DNA from: Gemmatimonadota bacterium
Lineage (GTDB): Bacteria > JAAXHH01
Direction: 5' to 3'
Assembly (NCBI GenBank): GCA_026706345.1
Contig: JAPOYX010000212.1
Coordinates: 1 to 64,000 of the forward strand
Length of the DNA stretch: 64,000 nt
This document shows positions 38,458 to 59,326 of the stretch, one piece after another. The position numbers and the translations under genes are program-made. A model generated the notes under the pieces. The model had not been told where the DNA came from. It did no database searches and saw nothing but the letters and a program-made list of their open reading frames with translations. Within the stretch, counting starts at the first letter, position 1, and the number at the start of each line of letters is the position of its first letter.

Positions 38458-38593
38458 TTCCGGGGTTCATTACATTATGCCGGAGCGCTCGAGCGTGCTT
38501 CAAATCGAATGATCCCGCCGCTTCTGCCAATAGCCGAAACGCGAGTTGGTGAAGGCGCGCGTAGCTGAACGCCGCCGATCCGAAGAGGTTCAT

Positions 38594-39331
38594 ATGTTGA
38601 CCGACGAACAGATACGGCAGTATCGGGAAGACGGCTATCTCTTCTTTGAAGCCCTGATTCAAGGCGAGCGATTAGCCCGTTACAAACAGGTGTTTGATGA
38701 ACTGGTCGCGGAGGGGCGCAAACTGACCGAGCAGGAACCACACTGGGCGCTCGAGCTGGACGAGCACGGTGAACCCCGGGCGGGTTTGCTCCACAAAGTC
38801 CAGGGGGTTTGCGTGGTCGACGCCCGTGTGTTGGAACTCGTGCGTGAACCGGCGATCGTAGACCGCGTGGCCGTACTGATTGGCGAAAACATCGATGTAT
38901 TCGGCACCAAGTTCTTCCCGAAGTTGCCCGATGGCGGCACGTCAACGGGCTGGCACCAGGACAATTTCTATTTCGGGACCGATACGGATCGCATTATCAG
39001 TTGCGGGATTTATCTGGAAGATTCGGACGTGGAGAATGGCTGTCTGCGGGTGGTGCCCGGCAGCCACCGGATCGGTGAGATTGTTGAGCACCGCAGGGAG
39101 TTGAGCAGGCATGGCAGTTGGACGAAGGTCGATGAAGCGCAGGCCGTGGACCTGGTCATTCCCGCGGGGACGGTCGTGCTATTTTCCGCCAATCTCCTGC
39201 ACGGCGCATACGATAACCACAGCAATCGCACACGCTATAGCACGGCATGGCATTACTTGCCCGAAGAACTCAATCCGAAGCAGTTTCTAAAGGGAATTTA
39301 CGAAGACCGGCACGTGGCGCGGAAGATTTGA
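38594..39331 (+). CDS. Phytanoyl-CoA dioxygenase (PhyH) family protein
   Basis: 245 residues from ATG 38594; a longer frame from 38546 adds charged non-homologous residues. Iron ligands H121-Q-D123 in GWHQDNFYF, the distal His in SANLLHGAYDNHSNRTR and the hallmark VENGCLRVVPGSHRIG are present. The nearest named relatives hydroxylate phytanoyl-CoA or small metabolites. It follows the DUF4377 gene on the same strand by 136 bases, without an obvious shared task. Confidence 0.92.
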   Translation: MLTDEQIRQYREDGYLFFEALIQGERLARYKQVFDELVAEGRKLTEQEPHWALELDEHGEPRAGLLHKVQGVCVVDARVLELVREPAIVDRVAVLIGENIDVFGTKFFPKLPDGGTSTGWHQDNFYFGTDTDRIISCGIYLEDSDVENGCLRVVPGSHRIGEIVEHRRELSRHGSWTKVDEAQAVDLVIPAGTVVLFSANLLHGAYDNHSNRTRYSTAWHYLPEELNPKQFLKGIYEDRHVARKI

Positions 39332-39363: not shown

Positions 39364-40071
39364 TTATGTATTTTGCTTCCGTAAAACACATTTAAAATCA
39401 CCCTTCTTCAAAACTGAACTGACCATCTGAAACGGAGAAGCCTCCAGTTCCGCCTTGAGGTCTTCACCGAAGAAAAAGTGCAAATAGTGTGGCGCTCCCA
39501 GGACGAATCCGTCTCCTTCTTCCAGGGTCTCGTAGTCGGGAGCGAATTTACGATGGTTGGCATCGTAGATGTCTTCGTAACCTTCCAGTACGGAATCCAG
39601 GACAGTCTGCGAAAGAAAAACCTCGCCATTGGGATCAAGCACACGCGCGACCTCTTCCAGAAAAGCGATACGGGACGCGCGGTGCGGGACGTAGCAATAG
39701 ACGTTTCCCATAAACGCAGCGGCAAATGAGGCGTCGGGAAAAGGCAGAGTCGGCATTTCGTACTGTAGAAACGTCACATTGACGCGTTCCGCTTCTGCGG
39801 TTTGCTTTGCCTGCTCAATCTGTTTTTTGGCAACATCGATACCGGTGACGTCGTATCCCTGCCGTGCAAGTGCGAAGCATAATCGTCCTGTCGCGCATCC
39901 AATGTCTAAGAGGCGACTGTCTAGCGGGTACTTTCCTACAAACGCCTGTTCCGCCTCCCGGATACCGTCTTTCAGCTCTTCTTTTCGGATATCGAGTTCT
40001 TCAGGGCCATTGTACTTGTCCTTTACGGAGTGCAGCAATCTCCGGGATTCCTGTGCGCTATTGGCAGCCAT
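39364..40071 (-). CDS. Class I SAM-dependent methyltransferase
   Basis: 235 residues from ATG 40071 (AAGG 11 bases ahead; a longer frame from 40149 adds no homology). The SAM motif LLDIGCATGRLCF is near residue 65, followed by GYDVTGIDVAKKQIEQAK and MPTLPFPDASFAAAF. The C-terminal part YLHFFFGEDLKAELEASPF is typical of small-molecule methyltransferases. It is downstream of the 5-alpha-reductase remnant on the same strand, so a lipid or sterol substrate is conceivable but unproven. Confidence 0.85.
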   Translation of the reverse strand: MAANSAQESRRLLHSVKDKYNGPEELDIRKEELKDGIREAEQAFVGKYPLDSRLLDIGCATGRLCFALARQGYDVTGIDVAKKQIEQAKQTAEAERVNVTFLQYEMPTLPFPDASFAAAFMGNVYCYVPHRASRIAFLEEVARVLDPNGEVFLSQTVLDSVLEGYEDIYDANHRKFAPDYETLEEGDGFVLGAPHYLHFFFGEDLKAELEASPFQMVSSVLKKGDFKCVLRKQNT

Positions 40072-40173
40072 TGGTCGTGTCGCCTTGATTTTTGATGTAA
40101 CGAGCAGTGCCTGGATACAAATGCCCCGCCCCGCGCGCCGGTATGCCATCCAGGGATCTGAGCCCCTACCCGA

Positions 40174-40765
40174 TCAGAACACGCCCGGGATGAGGGCGCG
40201 GCGGTTCGGTGGGTAGTCCGGGAACTCTTTTCGGTACCATTGGTGGTTGCTGCGGGCCCTGGGGACCAGATTGGCGATCGTAAAGGCACAGAACGCCAGT
40301 CCGCCGAGCGACCAGGTCGCGATCGCCCAACCCGTCCATTCCATGATTTCGCCCAGGTAGTTCGGGCAGGAGACGTACCGGAAGGCGCCGCGGCCGGGGA
40401 TGGCGTATCCCGTCCTTCCCTGTTTCCGCAGGCTCAGCAGAATGTTGTCGCTGTGCACGTTCAGAAACATGCCGGCGGCGAAAACCGCCAGTCCGATCAG
40501 GAAACACGGTTCGGTCAACCATGAAACGCCGTACTCCCCGAAGTGCGAGACGAACCGAGCGTTTACGTAAGCGTTCAGCACATTGAAGAAGAACCCCGCT
40601 CCAGCGGCAATCAGCGGCATGCTTCGCCCGGTGCGGATCCGAAACGGGTAGATGAGCGTCCGGTTGACGTAGTGTATCTGCCACATCGCCAGGAACACCA
40701 GCGGGGCCATGTTCAGGGCCGAATATGGTCCACACGAGCAGGCGATAGATCTCGGGCTCTGACAT
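40174..40765 (-). pseudogene. 3-oxo-5-alpha-steroid 4-dehydrogenase (SRD5A)-like, with internal deletion and frameshift
   Basis: The C-terminal two thirds closely match steroid 5-alpha-reductases: HYVNRTLIYPFR, FLNVHSDNILLSLRK, YVSCPNYLGEIMEWTGWA and the ending ALIPGVF. The first 17 residues (MSEPEIYRLLVWTIFG) also fit, but they are joined directly to ALNMAPLVFLAMWQIHY in another frame near 40718. Compared with human SRD5A1 about 55-60 residues, roughly residues 20-78 and covering the second membrane helix, are missing. This is a deletion too large for a sequencing error. The start codon is in the first unit of a 16-bp tandem repeat. Lies 112 bases from the sterol reductase gene, same strand. 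Confidence 0.8.
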
Positions 40766-40824
40766 TTCAACCGTCCGCAATCTCGACCGTCCGCAATCTC
40801 AACCGTCCGGCATTTCAAACGACC
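40761..40824. repeat. 16-bp tandem repeat (4 exact-register copies) over the start of the 5-alpha-reductase gene
   Basis: GACATTTCAACCGTCC (40761-40776), GCAATCTCGACCGTCC (40777-40792), GCAATCTCAACCGTCC (40793-40808) and GGCATTTCAAACGACC (40809-40824). The minus-strand ATG start (40763-40765) lies in the first unit, so the 5' untranslated region and start codon have been multiplied. Confidence 0.95.
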
Positions 40825-40877
40825 AACATACCTGATTCGTCGAATCAGCTACCTGGATCGTTGACCGCGACCAACTT

Positions 40878-42017
40878 TTAGTAAATCCACGGGACGATCC
40901 GGTACTTCACCTGTGCCTGGTACTCCGCCCATTTTTCGGCGCCGTATTTCCCGGCGCAGTGCCTTTCGTCATCCCGTTGACGGTAGGTGAACAGCGAGAC
41001 GATGAAGAGAAAATAGGTCCAGGCCCAGAAATTCGTGAAGTAGCCGAATACCAGGGCGATGGACAGGGCAAGAAACCCTTCGCCCATGTAGTTTAAGTGT
41101 CGGGCGACGCCCCAGAGGCCGCTGCACAGGATCCTGCGGTCGCCGGCCTGAATGTATTTCGGCTCGATGAGGCCGAGGAACTTGCGTTCGGGCCATCGCT
41201 TGAACGTGTACTTCTGCAGGTTGGCGCCGCGGGAGATGCCCCAGCCGAACAGGAACAGCGCGGACGTGCCGATGAGCCAGACATTCGTCCAGACCGGCGA
41301 GAATCCGGGGTTCGGGTACGCGGCCAAACCCCACAGTGGGAGGATGAACAGCCATCCGTAGACCACGAGACAGCCCCAGATCAGCTTGAAGCCCACATTC
41401 TCGTGGATCAGGTCGTAGGTATAGAGCTGTACGCGCTCGAAGACCATGTAGTCCATGATGTAGAAGGTGAAGAACGCCGCATACAGGATAACACCCGGAT
41501 TGGTATTCTCGCCGAAAAGCTCGTAATGGTACACGGCCCCGGACAGGGCGTTGAGCGACAGCATCGTTCCGCCTACGACGTACATGTACATCTTCACGTC
41601 GATACGTTCCTTGAAGAACGAAATCTCCTGCGCCCGGCCGAACCACCATGCCAGGAAACGGTTCTTCACCTTGCCCTGCGGCTGGCTGAACACGGCAATC
41701 AGGGTGAAGATTATGCTGAAGACCGTTCCGCCGGCCACGGCATAGATCGAGGACCGGTAGAACCAGTCGTGGGGAAGCCCGGTGAGTTCGAGCGCCCACA
41801 CGACGATCGCGATCAAGAACACGAGCAGGCCGTTGAGCCGGTAATTGCGATGCTCACCGGTCTCCAGGTTGACGACGTAGCCGGGGACCCACCTGCCGGG
41901 CAGCAATAGCTGGACCAGGAAGAACACGGCGTAGATCACCAGCGGGGTGAAGAACCCCAATATCGCTTCCGTCCGGGACAGTTCGAAAAGGTGTTCGATG
42001 CCCAGCCATTCTATCAT
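40878..42017 (-). CDS. Delta14-type sterol reductase (ERG4/ERG24 family)
   Basis: 379 residues from ATG 42017 (GGGGAA eight bases ahead), about ten membrane segments. The C-terminal signature is very strong: WGVARHLNYMGEGFLAL, YRQRDDERHCAGKYG and the ending YRIVPWIY, as in eukaryotic C-14 and C-24 sterol reductases and 7-dehydrocholesterol reductase. It would reduce a sterol ring double bond with NADPH in the membrane. It is on the same strand as, and 112 bases upstream of, the 5-alpha-reductase remnant. No cyclase or squalene enzyme is in the window, so the sterol may come from the cell or its surroundings. Confidence 0.9.
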   Translation of the reverse strand: MIEWLGIEHLFELSRTEAILGFFTPLVIYAVFFLVQLLLPGRWVPGYVVNLETGEHRNYRLNGLLVFLIAIVVWALELTGLPHDWFYRSSIYAVAGGTVFSIIFTLIAVFSQPQGKVKNRFLAWWFGRAQEISFFKERIDVKMYMYVVGGTMLSLNALSGAVYHYELFGENTNPGVILYAAFFTFYIMDYMVFERVQLYTYDLIHENVGFKLIWGCLVVYGWLFILPLWGLAAYPNPGFSPVWTNVWLIGTSALFLFGWGISRGANLQKYTFKRWPERKFLGLIEPKYIQAGDRRILCSGLWGVARHLNYMGEGFLALSIALVFGYFTNFWAWTYFLFIVSLFTYRQRDDERHCAGKYGAEKWAEYQAQVKYRIVPWIY

Positions 42018-42120: not shown

Positions 42121-43536
42121 ATGAACACGTCTAACCAGCTAAGCGCCGGTGCGGCGACGATCGACATATCCCCGCCGCTCGGGACGCACCTGGCGGGCAG
42201 CGGAGCAGGTGACCATCGTCCGACCCGGGCCGTATTGGATCCGCTCTATGCCAAGTCCATCGTCTTCGAGGCAGGCGGGCGGCGCGTCTGCCTGGTGATC
42301 CTGGATCTCACCATTGTCACCGGCGAATACACGGACAGGATCCGTGCAGCCATCAGCGAGCAAACGGGTATTGAACGGGACGCGATCATGGTCCAGGCGA
42401 CTCAGACGCATTCCGCTCCGAGCCTCGGTTACTTTATGCTGGATCCGGATTTTCCATTGGAGACCAACGAGGAAACGGAGTATCTGCGCGGGGCCGAGCG
42501 GGCCTATGGCGACCGGGCCGCAGCCGCTGCGGTAGAGGCGGCGGTCGAAGCGGCGGGTCGGCTGCAACCCGTGCGCGTCGGCCTGGGCCGCGGTGTGCTG
42601 GGCGACCTGGCTTTCAACAGGCGCGGCATTCGCAGGGACGGCACCATATTCATGCCCAGGCCGCTGGGCCGGGAGCGGCAGCCCTTCGGGATCTCGGATG
42701 TATGCTACCTGGAAGGTCCTATCGATCCGGAGGTAGGCGTGTGCTGCGTCCAGGATATGGATGGGAAACCGCTGGCCTTTCTCCTGCACTACACCTGCCA
42801 TCCGGTCAATGCTTACGGAAACAGCGAGACCTTCCTGGCCGCGTCGGCGGATTGGCCCGGTGCCTGGGCCTGGGAGATGCAGCGGGAGTTCGGTCCCGAT
42901 ACCGTGCCGCTGGTCGTCAACGGATGTTGCGGCAACATCAACCCCTGGCACCCCTACGACCCGGATTTCCGGCCGGACCACCAGCGGATGGGCCGCGGAT
43001 TGTCCAGCCTGAGCGAACGTATCGTGCATGCCATGACGTTCGAAGACGAAGCCACGCTGGATACCAGGATCATAAAGATCGGCCTGCCCTTTCGCGAGAT
43101 ACCTGAAGCACGCCTGCGCGAAGTCGATGCGATTCTCGCCGAGCATCCAGAACCGCCGCGCGAAGCGGCCGGCCAGGTGGACCCGCGCTGGTTCCGGGCG
43201 GCGTCGACCCGCAGCGTCGAACTGTGCAGGCAGCGGGACGGCGAGTTCAGCTATGAGATCCAGGCCTTTCGCATCGGCGATCTTTGTATCGTCGGCCTTC
43301 CCGGGGAACCTTTCGTGGAAGGGCAACTGGCGCTCAAACTAAACTCGCCGGCCTCCTATCTATGTCCGGCACACCTCACGACGCACTATGTCGGTTACCT
43401 GCCGACGCGGGGGGCTTATCCCCGTGGTGGACACGAAGCCAACGAAGACGTTACCTACTGGGCCAAGCTGGCCCCCGGCTGCATGGAAACCGTGATCGAG
43501 CGGGCGCGGGAACTGGTGCAGGAGCTGTTTGGATAA
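42121..43536 (+). CDS. Neutral/alkaline non-lysosomal ceramidase-like hydrolase
   Basis: 471 residues. The N-terminal region GAATIDISPPLGTHLAG and the metal-site motifs ATQTHSAPSLGYF and LHYTCHPVNAYG match the family's N-terminal domain, with the zinc His in QTHSAP. Unlike true ceramidases there is no signal peptide and the C-terminal immunoglobulin-like domain is short or absent, so amide or ester substrates other than ceramide are likely. AAAGG precedes ATG 42121. Divergent from the sterol reductase by 103 bases. Confidence 0.85.
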   Translation: MNTSNQLSAGAATIDISPPLGTHLAGSGAGDHRPTRAVLDPLYAKSIVFEAGGRRVCLVILDLTIVTGEYTDRIRAAISEQTGIERDAIMVQATQTHSAPSLGYFMLDPDFPLETNEETEYLRGAERAYGDRAAAAAVEAAVEAAGRLQPVRVGLGRGVLGDLAFNRRGIRRDGTIFMPRPLGRERQPFGISDVCYLEGPIDPEVGVCCVQDMDGKPLAFLLHYTCHPVNAYGNSETFLAASADWPGAWAWEMQREFGPDTVPLVVNGCCGNINPWHPYDPDFRPDHQRMGRGLSSLSERIVHAMTFEDEATLDTRIIKIGLPFREIPEARLREVDAILAEHPEPPREAAGQVDPRWFRAASTRSVELCRQRDGEFSYEIQAFRIGDLCIVGLPGEPFVEGQLALKLNSPASYLCPAHLTTHYVGYLPTRGAYPRGGHEANEDVTYWAKLAPGCMETVIERARELVQELFG

Positions 43537-43561: not shown

Positions 43562-44332
43562 TTACCGTGGGACGTCCTCGACGTCCAGGATGTAGCGCGC
43601 CAGCTGGGACAGGCGTTGGGCAGTCGCGGACTGCAGGCATTCCCGCTGATTGGTCTGTTGCGGGTGTTCACGGGCTATAAAGGCACAGTGCAGGGCTCGC
43701 CGGGGGGCATCGCTGCGGTTCACGTACGAGCTGTGCCAGAGGCTGCCGTTGAATACGGCCACCGAACCCGCGCGGCCCGTCAGATGCGCCTGGTCGGGGT
43801 GGTCCGCCAGGCGATCCGCCACGTGGTCGGTAATCCTGCCGGGTATCAGGTGGCTGCCGGGCACGCAGCGCGTCGCGCCGTTCACCTCGGTGAAGTCGTC
43901 GAGCATCCACAAGGAATTGACGACGTGGTACGGCCCGCCGGGCTCGGCAGGTTGGCCCCAATCGGCGTGCAGTATCTGTAACCCGCTTCCGGGCAGGGGG
44001 TCGTGTCCGTTGAGCGAGTGTAGCTTGAACGGCCGCTGCAGGATATGGAAGACTGCCGTCAAGAGCTCGGGCTGCAGGTAGACCGCATCGAATGCCGATC
44101 CCTTGTTGACCAGGTCGGCAAGCCGGCGCACGCCTTCCATCTGAGCGACTTCCACGCCAGCTTTTTCACCCTCGCGATCATATGTCGTATCAAATGCATG
44201 GCGCAACTCGGCGAGCCAGTCCGGCGGGATGATCTCCTCCAACACGATGAAACCATCGGTGTCCAGCGCGCCGCGTTGGGCGTCCGTCAGCGGCCGGGGT
44301 TCGAATCCCCGGTCAAGCAATTCGTGGTCCAA
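43562..44332 (-). CDS. Phytanoyl-CoA dioxygenase (PhyH) family protein
   Basis: 256 residues. I choose TTG 44330-44332 because an AGGA site lies eight bases ahead; the longer frame to 44548 adds 72 low-complexity residues antisense to nothing convincing. Iron ligands H-A-D in LQILHADWGQP and the distal His in FNGSLWHSSYVNRSD are present, with the Arg cluster DAPRRALH and TRCVPGSHLIPG. It is next to the SDR gene on the same strand; both suit lipid or sterol modification, but the substrate is unknown. Confidence 0.85.
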   Translation of the reverse strand: MDHELLDRGFEPRPLTDAQRGALDTDGFIVLEEIIPPDWLAELRHAFDTTYDREGEKAGVEVAQMEGVRRLADLVNKGSAFDAVYLQPELLTAVFHILQRPFKLHSLNGHDPLPGSGLQILHADWGQPAEPGGPYHVVNSLWMLDDFTEVNGATRCVPGSHLIPGRITDHVADRLADHPDQAHLTGRAGSVAVFNGSLWHSSYVNRSDAPRRALHCAFIAREHPQQTNQRECLQSATAQRLSQLARYILDVEDVPR

Positions 44333-44405
44333 ATTGGTTTTCCTGTAGATTGATGCCGGTTTATGGTGGATGCCGCGAGGTGTGCTGCGCGCGCGGCGTG
44401 TCGTA

Positions 44406-45428
44406 TTATGCAGGTCCCGGGCGTGCACCCGGTTTCGCGAGCGTCCCGACCCACTGTACAGACAGGTCCCACAGGCGTTTTGCCGCGTGGTCGTCCTGGC
44501 TGTCCGCGCTCGGTTCGGCGATGGCGCAACGCTCGTAGTATTCCCCACCTTGCAGCGGCCGTTGGCTCGCGCACATCACGATGGTCTGCGCCCCGGCATT
44601 CGGGGACAGCAGGACCAGCGAGGTCAGCGCGGAGCTGATTCGATGCGCCATCCTGCCGATCCTGCCTCGAAATGCCTGCGGCAGGGTCAGGTTGGTCATT
44701 ACGACGCCCGGATGTACGGCCACCGCGTGCAGGTTGTGTGATTCGGCGAATCGTCTTTCGATTTCAAATGCCATGTGAATCATCGCCAACTTCGATTTTC
44801 CGTATGCGTCCCATGAGTGGTAGCGCGGCGTATCGCGGTGCGGCGCCTCATCAAAAAGCTCCTCGTTCCCGACCCGCTCATGCAGACCGGAGGACACGTT
44901 GACGACCCGCGCGTCGCCGCTTTCGATCCCGGTCCGTTGCAGGAGGGGAAGTAGCGCCCAGGTCAGGTGATAGGCACCAAGGTAGTTGGTCCGCCAGTGT
45001 ACCTCGAAGCCATCTTCGGTCAGAGGCGCTTTCTCTCGTGGAGCGAGGGTCTTCGTGTGTATGCCCGCGTTGTTGACCAGTACATGGAGTTGTCCCTGGT
45101 GTCTGTCACGATACCACGTGGCGAAGCCGTTGACGCTGTCAGGTTCGCTGAGATCCAGTCTGTGCGCCGTGATGTTGTCCGCGTCGACGCCGCACCTGCG
45201 CAGGTCGTCTTTCAGCGACGACTCCATCAGGGGCACATTGCGCACGCAGGTCGCCACGACCCTCGCGCCCCAGCTGGCGAGGATCCTGGCGGTTTCGTAC
45301 CCGAGCGAACCGGGTGATGCCCCGGTCACAATCACGTGACGCCCCGACATATCAACCGGGGCCGCCTTCGGCTTGGGGAGGAACAATCGCACCAGATGCC
45401 TGGCGGTTTTAGAAAGGGAATTGGGCAT
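44406..45428 (-). CDS. Short-chain dehydrogenase/reductase (retinol-dehydrogenase-like)
   Basis: 340 residues. Cofactor motif T-G-A-S-P-G-S-L-G near residue 34, NNAG near 108, and the catalytic Y-x-x-x-K in WDAYGKSKLA near residue 213 with Ser in VVNVSSGLHE. A hydrophobic basic N-terminus (LVRLFLPKPK) may associate it with membranes, as in retinol and sterol dehydrogenases. It lies between two PhyH genes on the same strand; a role in oxidising or reducing a lipid alcohol is inferred. Confidence 0.85.
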   Translation of the reverse strand: MPNSLSKTARHLVRLFLPKPKAAPVDMSGRHVIVTGASPGSLGYETARILASWGARVVATCVRNVPLMESSLKDDLRRCGVDADNITAHRLDLSEPDSVNGFATWYRDRHQGQLHVLVNNAGIHTKTLAPREKAPLTEDGFEVHWRTNYLGAYHLTWALLPLLQRTGIESGDARVVNVSSGLHERVGNEELFDEAPHRDTPRYHSWDAYGKSKLAMIHMAFEIERRFAESHNLHAVAVHPGVVMTNLTLPQAFRGRIGRMAHRISSALTSLVLLSPNAGAQTIVMCASQRPLQGGEYYERCAIAEPSADSQDDHAAKRLWDLSVQWVGTLAKPGARPGPA

Positions 45429-45548: not shown

Positions 45549-46439
45549 CTAACGCGGCTCCCGCTTGACCACGTCCAGGTCCCAATCCCTCCAGTAGAAC
45601 TTCACCGGATCGTCCTCATCCCAATGTTCGTATATCTGGTCCCACGTCAGCCAGTTCATGTGGGGCTGAAGGGAATCCTCGCGAACCGGGTGGCTTCTCG
45701 GCTGATAGCGGTAGTCGGACGACAGCCGTAGACGGTCCGCCGTCAGGTTATCCCGGCCCTGGTGAATCGTCAGGCTGTGGAGGATGATGACGTCCCCGCA
45801 GGTATAGTCGCCGCCGACCCAGGCGGAATCGTCCTCTACGGGAACCTGTCGTCCGCCCGGCCCCACGCCTTCGGTCGTCTCCAGCATGCCGCTGCGGTGG
45901 GATCCCCGGTTGACGGCGAGTCCGCCGAGTTCCTCAGGGCAGTCGCCCAGCGGGATCCAGGCCGTCCACGTCTCGTCCGAACCGCCGATGAAGTAGTTGT
46001 CCTGGTGAGGCGGGGTCGAGTGGGTGTTCGTGTCCGGGAATACGAGCCGGCAGATGTTCCGGCTGTGGGCCAGGGCGGGTTCTCCGAACAGCACTTCGAG
46101 CATGTGGGTTATTGCGGGGTCGAGGGCCAATGCGTGGAAGTCGCGGATTCGCTGGACATCGTTGTAGAAAGCCTGCCAGCGCGGATCGTCGCCTTCGAAC
46201 ACGCTTGTACCGGAATTCGCGAAACCGTCGATAAGGTTCGAGCCGGGGGCAAGCCAGCCATGTTCCCGGCACACACCGAGTACCTGGCGCCGGACCTCCA
46301 CCACGCGCGCCGGATCAAGCAGACGCCGAAAGAACAGGCAGCCGTGCTCCGCGGCACGTTGCCGCAGTTCGCGGGGACGCGCCAGCAGTTCCGTCGCGTC
46401 TTCCAGGGCGTGGATCCGCTTCATGTCGACCATCGCCAT
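45549..46439 (-). CDS. Phytanoyl-CoA dioxygenase (PhyH) family protein
   Basis: 296 residues from ATG 46439, which has AGGAACAG seven bases ahead; the ATG at 46511 gives extra non-homologous residues. Iron ligands in TPPHQDNYFIGG and the distal His in HSLTIHQGRDNLTADRLR, with the hallmark GGLAVNRGSHRSGML. It is the fourth of six PhyH members in the window and stands downstream of nothing obvious. Confidence 0.92.
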   Translation of the reverse strand: MAMVDMKRIHALEDATELLARPRELRQRAAEHGCLFFRRLLDPARVVEVRRQVLGVCREHGWLAPGSNLIDGFANSGTSVFEGDDPRWQAFYNDVQRIRDFHALALDPAITHMLEVLFGEPALAHSRNICRLVFPDTNTHSTPPHQDNYFIGGSDETWTAWIPLGDCPEELGGLAVNRGSHRSGMLETTEGVGPGGRQVPVEDDSAWVGGDYTCGDVIILHSLTIHQGRDNLTADRLRLSSDYRYQPRSHPVREDSLQPHMNWLTWDQIYEHWDEDDPVKFYWRDWDLDVVKREPR

Positions 46440-46562
46440 AGACTGTTCCTTTCTCAGTATGACCCGGGTGATCATTTCGAAATAATGTCGATAATCGCAT
46501 CGATGTCTCAAGGTGGTATTATGCGGGATTCGGACGTGTTACGCCAGCGTTAAGTCGATGAG

Positions 46563-58131: not shown

Positions 58132-58971
58132 CTACTCCGCCTTCCACGCCCCGTCGAAACCCGTGTAACCCTCGGCGTAGTGCTTGAGGCGGTCGGGAAG
58201 TCGCTCGGCCAGGGCCGTCGCCGAAGCGGGCAACGGCCACGGCGCGTCGATGCGCCAGGTTTTTGGACGGAACCCGATGCCGCAGGAGTAGCGGCGCTCC
58301 CGGGTGGCCATATTGGCGTGCCAGGTGAGTGCGGCGAAGCAGATCAGGTCGCCTGGGTCAGCCACAACCGGAACGCAGCCGGGCACGGACATCCCGTCGT
58401 ACGGGGTTTCCGGGGTACCGCCTTCCGGGTATAATCCACCGCGGCTCGGGGCCATGATGTAACCCTGGGGGCCATCCCATTCCGGATAGTGGGACTTCTC
58501 GATGACCGCGATACCGCTTCGATCCGGATGGCTTCCGTTGAGATAGAACCAGGCGCCGCTGGGGATAGGGAACCGGTTAAGGACGTCGTTGGCGGTCTGC
58601 GGTTCGGCAATGTGACCCCGGTGGTCCTGGTGCCAGCGGCCCATGCCCTCGCCCGGCGTGCGGAGGATGGCCGCGGACCGGTGCAGACACAGGTCTTCGG
58701 TGTCATGCACGGTCCGAATGAAACGCATGTAGGCCGGATTGTCGACAAGGTCCCAGACGGGCTCGCTGTCTTCGGCGAAGGCCATGTGATACCGGTTGGC
58801 AGCCGGTCCCAGATCGTTTTCCAGATCCAGGTGCCGGTCGATGGACTCCTTCAGTGCGGCCACCATGTCCTGGTCGATCATCTGCTGAATGACGCAGAAG
58901 CCGTATTCATTCAGGCAGGCAATCGCCGCCTCGAGATCATCGCGATGGAAATTATAGTTGTAATCCGGCAT
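58132..58971 (-). CDS. Phytanoyl-CoA dioxygenase (PhyH) family protein
   Basis: 279 residues from ATG 58971 (a longer frame to 59160 adds unrelated residues). Iron ligands H-Q-D in GRWHQDHRGH and the distal His in FAALTWHANMATRERRYS are present, with ASGAWFYLNGSHPDRSG as the hallmark. A motif CLNEYGFCVIQQMIDQDMV opens the domain. It begins inside the 3' end of the truncated HAD gene, same strand (20-base overlap), and may have been brought next to it by the deletion that truncated that gene. Confidence 0.92.
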   Translation of the reverse strand: MPDYNYNFHRDDLEAAIACLNEYGFCVIQQMIDQDMVAALKESIDRHLDLENDLGPAANRYHMAFAEDSEPVWDLVDNPAYMRFIRTVHDTEDLCLHRSAAILRTPGEGMGRWHQDHRGHIAEPQTANDVLNRFPIPSGAWFYLNGSHPDRSGIAVIEKSHYPEWDGPQGYIMAPSRGGLYPEGGTPETPYDGMSVPGCVPVVADPGDLICFAALTWHANMATRERRYSCGIGFRPKTWRIDAPWPLPASATALAERLPDRLKHYAEGYTGFDGAWKAE

Positions 58972-59326
58972 GTGAACGGGTGATCTCCCAGGCGCCCCGG
59001 CTTTTGCCGGTAACGATGCCCATCTTGACGCTGCTTCTTCGAAGTGATGCCAGCAGTTCCTGGATTCCCGGATAGACCCCGTCGAAGTATTCCTCGTGAA
59101 GCAGGCAATAGTTTGCCAGGAATCGGCGATGGGCGGCCTCCACCGCGCCGGATGGGACAAAATACCCTAAAAGCCGCGGTTCGGAGTTCAGCCGAAGCGT
59201 CGCAAGACGCGCAGTGGGCACTTCCTCGAAAATGGTGTCTTTCAGGGTACGCTTCACGGCCTGAATGTACAGCTCCAACGAGTCAATCAGCGTACCATCC
59301 AGATCGAAGAGCACACATCGAATCAT
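58952..59326 (-). pseudogene. HAD-family hydrolase, truncated at the 3' end
   Basis: 124 residues from ATG 59326. Motif I is LFDLDGTLIDS at residues 6-16, a cap domain follows, and motif II is MGIVTGKSRGAWE. The motifs III and IV that complete the active site are missing, since the frame ends 20 bases inside the PhyH gene. Relatives have about 215 residues. It overlaps the Nudix gene by 4 bases at its start. The protein is probably inactive. Confidence 0.7.

Follow-up and report, generated by a model that had tools for sequence, protein, structure and literature searches.

An orphan sterol-reductase-like enzyme of sponge-associated bacteria and the broken steroid 5-alpha-reductase gene beside it in a Gemmatimonadota genome

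In the fossil record, sponge sterols serve as markers of early animals; whether bacteria shape them is disputed. To date, attention has been given to symbionts that hold whole sterol clusters. Such clusters, encoding TM7SF2/ERG24, CYP51 and LSS, have been described in Ircinia symbionts of ten phyla, where they show both transfer and purifying selection (Kelly et al., 2022; PMC9531527). The closest structurally characterized enzyme is MaSR1 (PDB 4QUV), the delta14-sterol reductase of Methylotuvimicrobium alcaliphilum, for which Tyr241 and Asp363 have been proposed as the predicted catalytic pair (PMC12489058). In LBR, the equivalents of MaSR1 N359 and R395 have been shown to be needed for NADPH binding (PMC4951196). 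Reductases for host sterols have also been reported in intracellular bacteria, namely a delta24 reductase in Coxiella (as cited in a passage of PMC9666466) and enzymes of Legionella drancourtii (PMC2667531) and of sponge Chlamydiae (PMC9666466). The NTF2-type 8,14-reductase of methanotrophs (PMC13277303) was considered as a further counterpart and rejected, as its fold is unrelated.

The window analysed here, a stretch of 64,000 nucleotides, is part of a 97.7-kb contig in a MAG of 4.49 Mb (completeness 97.9%, contamination 4.6%) from a Gemmatimonadota bacterium that lives in marine sponges. It encodes an intact reductase of the sterol-reductase family and, downstream of it, the remains of an SRD5A-like gene (Table 1).

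Table 1. Position, strand and basis of assignment of the features discussed in the text.
Feature	Position	Strand	Basis or remark
SAM methyltransferase	39364..40149	(-)	conserved neighbour, context only; persists in G004 despite loss of the reductase
SRD5A-like 3' part (Steroid_dh domain), out of frame with its own start	40174..40721	(-)	PF02544, 7C83
Deletion junction, 167 bp missing	40717..40721	(-)	in the intact relative, both ends carry CGGCC (microhomology)
SRD5A 5' fragment with the original start codon (MSEPEIYRLLVWTIF..)	40722..40765	(-)	alignment to the intact G008 gene
Short tandem repeat, ~16-bp unit, directly before the SRD5A start	40766..40808	(-)	one unit more than G008 (alignment)
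Sterol-reductase-like membrane protein, ERG4/ERG24 fold, orphan, intact, 379 aa	40878..42017	(-)	Pfam, 4QUV match, AF2 model
Neutral-ceramidase-like protein	42121..43536	(+)	conserved divergent neighbour, context only

The reductase reading frame runs from ATG to stop, and its product matches Pfam ERG4_ERG24 (PF01222) with 130.6 bits (cut-off 27), covering positions 76-432 of the 432 of the profile. The DUF1295 profile is also above its cut-off (31 bits), and no match was obtained with PEMT or with any NCBIfam model. Among solved structures, MaSR1 is the closest and the sole strong match (E = 1.7e-36). An AF2 model of the protein (pLDDT 76) aligns with 4QUV over 351 residues with a TM score of 0.76 and a Z score of 31.7, compared to 11.1 for ICMT and 11.0 for SRD5A. 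An earlier note on this DNA, made from the sequence alone, had named a placement with ICMT/PEMT-like proteins as what would speak against its reading; the enzyme belongs to the sterol-reductase family. The same note described it as complete with the family signature, which is correct for its completeness but does not strictly hold for the signature. The strict C-terminal signature of the ERG4/ERG24 family, with its R-D pair, is a loose criterion: it is found in 0 of 104 members of the clade described below and is absent too in one cluster-type ERG24 tested. Within it, the Asp is retained and the Arg before it is variable; this Arg (MaSR1 R398) is replaced by D349 in the window protein and is conserved in none of the 104 members. 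Profile and fold still place the enzyme in the ERG4/ERG24 family despite this mismatch.

Alignment of the clade further showed that MaSR1 residues Y241, K319, W352, N359, Y360, R395 and D399 are conserved in 103-104 of 104 members, the Tyr241 position being a Tyr in 103 of 103, and that the window protein retains R395, D399, C403 and the KYG motif of MaSR1. At the position of D363, the predicted catalytic Asp, all 104 members have a Glu (Glu313 in the window protein), as do the cluster-type, CYP51-linked delta-14 reductases. The window protein is likely a working NADPH reductase, in which NADPH bound in the conserved C-terminal pocket would donate a hydride and Tyr186 (MaSR1 Tyr241), together with Glu313, would provide the proton; such a Tyr-Glu pair is proposed by analogy with MaSR1. 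The window protein and MaSR1 share their fold, NADPH-site residues and predicted catalytic Tyr. The two enzymes differ in sequence (28-31% identity), by the Glu for Asp363, by the unconserved R398 and by the shorter N-terminus of the window protein, which, unlike MaSR1, is encoded by an orphan gene in a bacterium devoid of sterol synthesis.

The earlier note envisaged an endogenous sterol or one taken from a eukaryotic host, and suggested a genome search for sterol-synthesis genes. In the window MAG, the only pieces of squalene epoxidase (SE) and cyclase are on a 3.5-kb contig, C185, which carries ERG24, a P450, SE and the start of a cyclase. This contig would favor a function of the window enzyme as C-14 reductase of the bacterium's own sterol pathway. 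However, C185 is 99.07% identical over 752 bp to a locus (L136) of the sponge symbiont Binatota MAG CO36406bin_18, and its GC content is 0.63 versus 0.59 for the window. In addition, a survey of 12 genomes of the genus (the window species and eleven relatives) revealed no squalene epoxidase in the eleven relatives and no cyclase apart from one sub-threshold match in G010. C185 was therefore rejected as a source of the genus' own sterol genes and attributed to contamination. Considering also that the window reductase is only ~41% identical to cluster-type ERG24 and falls in a different clade, a role in an endogenous pathway is extremely improbable. The genus makes no sterols; since it has neither cyclase nor epoxidase, the substrate, if a sterol, must come from elsewhere, and the earlier assignment of the enzyme as delta14-type is not supported. 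Another contig of the MAG, C195 (3.2 kb, GC 0.63), contains a cluster-type ERG24 with split frames adjoining a gamma-glutamyltransferase-like gene and is probably misbinned too.

A scan of ~85,000 species genomes for relatives of the reductase yielded 217 confirmed loci. The best 80 of these 217 are 70-93% identical over their full length and originate from MAGs labelled with 11 NCBI phyla. In a quick tree with long outgroup branches, these 80 loci form a single clade (SH-aLRT 99) and the reductases of CYP51 clusters a separate group (SH-aLRT 100). Across phyla, identity to the reductase of genome G099 is 70.7-79.9%, versus 51-60% for UvrA of the same genomes (means of 75.6% and 57.0%), the reductase being more conserved in 23 out of 23 comparisons; within the phylum, both proteins are ~78-84% identical in the two nearest genomes. 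Because reductase identity exceeds UvrA identity across phyla, these sequence comparisons provide strong evidence that the gene moved between phyla by horizontal transfer. The traceable sources of the carrier MAGs are marine sponges: the jk18x MAGs are the Ircinia MAGs of Kelly et al. (PMC9531527), and sponge hosts are evident from names such as Spongia_Bin9 and Palauibacter rhopaloidicola. In a sample of 149 Acidobacteriota genomes, the tight clade was found in one, the centre of the sample, and relatives with 44-46% identity in four. A search for phage carriage returned a single distant match (45%) on viral contigs.

Across the 80 loci, no conserved neighbor names a pathway, and only antisense ORFs and within-phylum neighbors recur. 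The nearest outgroups (41-46% identical) are not located beside sterol genes, and in two of them (L182 and L183) the reductase follows an SDR gene. In the four Acidobacteriota genomes with 44-46% relatives (L177-L180), the reductase gene comes third after boxC and boxB, which belong to the benzoyl-CoA pathway. In six Chloroflexota symbionts (L068, L075, L076, L077, L081 and L093), the window-type reductase is present as a tandem pair, whose members share 73% and 69% identity with the window enzyme and are old paralogues in all six.

The TM7SF2/ERG24 of the published clusters (PMC9531527) resembles the window type in its occurrence in sponge symbionts of many phyla, its horizontal transfer, its PF01222 domain and the Glu at position 363. 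In contrast, it is encoded beside CYP51 and a cyclase and is nearer to MaSR1 (38-40% identity, compared to 28-31%), whereas the window type forms a separate clade and stands alone. Among 48 carriers of the window type, 11 also hold a fusion-length SE-cyclase frame and 37 do not, with 28 carriers having no cyclase match above 50 bits; for carriers outside the genus, these counts come without completeness values. As 37 of 48 carriers lack the cluster cyclase, the window-type reductase comes on top of the published clusters and mostly occurs independently of them. With the reductases of Coxiella, L. drancourtii and sponge Chlamydiae, likened here by description, it shares an orphan status, the absence of sterol synthesis and a sterol-making host. 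While these are single acquisitions in intracellular lineages, the window type is one conserved clade across sponge-symbiont phyla. In the papers searched, we found no description of a conserved orphan reductase that differs from the sterol-cluster enzyme and is common to sponge symbionts of many phyla.

In the sponge-symbiont sterol clusters that were read, SE and the (oxido)squalene cyclase are encoded together in a single frame of 1136-1156 aa, in which the SE domain precedes the N and C domains of the cyclase (L185:8193-11660, L186:8556-11963, G000:C185:3-1838); no published description of this fusion was found in the literature searched. These clusters also carry a 3-beta-HSD-like and a Rieske protein: at their 5' end (L186:3831-6085, L185:14120-16383), genes annotated as "DFR" and "hypothetical protein" seem, from a scan of L186, to encode a dehydrogenase of the 3-beta-HSD type and an oxygenase of the Rieske/VanA type. 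This pair is reminiscent of the C-4 demethylase pair SdmB/SdmA.

The absence of sterol synthesis in the genus, together with a near-identical enzyme across sponge bacteria, suggests an action on sterols made by the sponge or its microbiome. The protein has the fold of sterol C=C reductases and is likely an NADPH-dependent integral-membrane enzyme, which most likely saturates a double bond of the sterol ring, on sterols that the bacterium does not make and would take from the sponge or from sterol-making co-symbionts. Horizontal transfer has carried its gene into sponge symbionts of about eleven phyla, where selection keeps it. The same fold could also serve a non-sterol substrate, such as an activated C=C bond in some other membrane lipid (a polyprenoid, a carotenoid or a lipid particular to the symbionts), "sterol reductase" being then merely a family name. 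The SDR and boxBC neighbors of the deep relatives, the match to DUF1295, a broader membrane-reductase family, the absence of sterol genes in the genus and the loss of the signature Arg are in line with such a substrate. Conversely, the Z score of 31.7 over 351 residues is to a bona fide delta14-sterol reductase, Tyr241 and the entire cofactor site are kept, and carriers live with sterol-rich sponges, some of them also holding sterol clusters. Points against a sterol substrate are the clade-wide replacement of Asp363 by Glu and loss of the signature Arg, the lack of a pathway-naming neighbor and outgroups away from sterol genes. Because of the outgroup neighbors, the unkept strict signature and the absence of a neighbor naming a pathway, we give about an even chance to the view that the enzyme is an orphan, NADPH-dependent sterol reductase working on exogenous sterols, and consider another lipid a possible but rather doubtful substrate.

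If the substrate is a sterol, the orphan reductase that symbionts from about eleven phyla share through horizontal transfer might modify sponge- or symbiont-made sterols, and the sponge sterol profile might partly be the work of bacteria that make no sterols, a proposal that we regard as tentative. Sponge biomarkers, as well as the sterol profile, would then be partly shaped by bacteria unable to make sterols, and a conserved orphan reductase in cluster-free symbionts would mean that bacteria influence sponge sterols by a second and wider route.

Within the genus genomes that were read, the gene order PhyH-SDR-PhyH-ceramidase-like-[reductase]-[SRD5A]-methyltransferase-PhyH-katG holds. An intact syntenic reductase is present in 7 of the 12 genomes, while SRD5A is found at the locus only in G008 and the window species. 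The reductase has a dN/dS of 0.11-0.12 against three relatives, and the SRD5A remnant a value of 0.33, based on few changes. These ratios indicate strong purifying selection on the reductase, which is not decaying. The earlier note saw in the pair a sterol-modifying function partly lost; since the reductase is strongly constrained and SRD5A is late-inserted and decayed, this description fits SRD5A alone. The conserved gene order might suggest that the three PhyH genes, the SDR, methyltransferase, ceramidase-like protein and reductases constitute one island modifying steroids or sphingolipids. Yet in G004 all the neighbors are present with the reductase reduced to a 23-residue remnant and no SRD5A at the locus, the reductase stands alone with no common neighbor in ~80 other loci, and PhyH genes also occur often in other parts of the window, making such an island very unlikely. 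As the neighboring PhyH, SDR, ceramidase and methyltransferase genes persist without the reductase, nothing ties them to it, and the idea that the SDR and PhyH enzymes work on the same molecules finds no support. Several genes of PhyH-family dioxygenases lie in a ~20-kb part of the window, three assigned by Pfam (38546-39331, 43562-44548 and 45549-46511) and one by eye (58132-59160).

The SRD5A-like gene had been recognized by its C-terminal half, and rightly so: the frame 40174-40818 matches Steroid_dh (PF02544) with 182 bits over positions 2-150 of the 150 of the profile, and PbSRD5A (7C83) with E = 1e-56. PbSRD5A and human SRD5A2 (7C83, 7BW1) are its closest known relatives. The sister species G008 (L021, Plut_88884) possesses an intact 252-aa SRD5A at the same place, 89% identical to the remnant. 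Compared to this gene, the window copy is short by exactly 167 bp (55.7 codons), in agreement with the earlier estimate of 55-60 residues and the frame lost, with CGGCC microhomology and a junction near 40721. As a result, the C-terminal domain is read in a different frame from the true N-terminus, MSEPEIYRLLVWTIFG, whose ATG lies at 40765. The deleted segment contained the first transmembrane segments, the Glu matching E57 of human SRD5A2 (GMECPAV in G008) and the loop that in PbSRD5A carries Y32/R34. This Glu and the Y32/R34 residues are required for activity or cofactor binding (PMC7815742). Thus, unlike PbSRD5A and human SRD5A2, the window copy has neither the region of the catalytic Glu nor the first NADPH-binding loops and, although it retains the Tyr equivalent to Y91 of HsSRD5A2 (in HYVNRT), it cannot be a working 5-alpha-reductase.

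As the source is a MAG, known from assembly alone, the deletion might be an assembly or binning artefact, with the gene intact in living cells. This is highly improbable given the 97.7-kb contig, the even identity to G008 on both sides of the deletion and the microhomology at the ends, which at 5 bp could not have made an assembly collapse and is a plausible mark of a deletion. Identity to G008 is even along the whole region; the SRD5A insertion is therefore older than the split of the two species and the deletion younger, and a recent SRD5A transfer between them was rejected on the same ground, as the region has been inherited vertically since the split. This SRD5A, of the 3-oxo-delta4-steroid 5-alpha-reductase type, is a late gain: it entered the locus only in the common ancestor of G008 and the window species, was inactivated in the latter by the 167-bp deletion, and is a freshly broken, dispensable add-on. 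SRD5A genes at other sites in G001, G004 and G006 (with 61% identity to the G008 protein, or 63-64% when only the C-terminal part is compared) exclude a replacement and hence the possibility that ERG and SRD5A are alternatives at one site.

Finally, UvrA of the window MAG occurs as two copies in a single 1938-aa frame (G000:C14:76-5730), and such double-UvrA frames recur in two relatives from the genus (G003 and G008), in G077 and in the Binatota genomes G063/G064.
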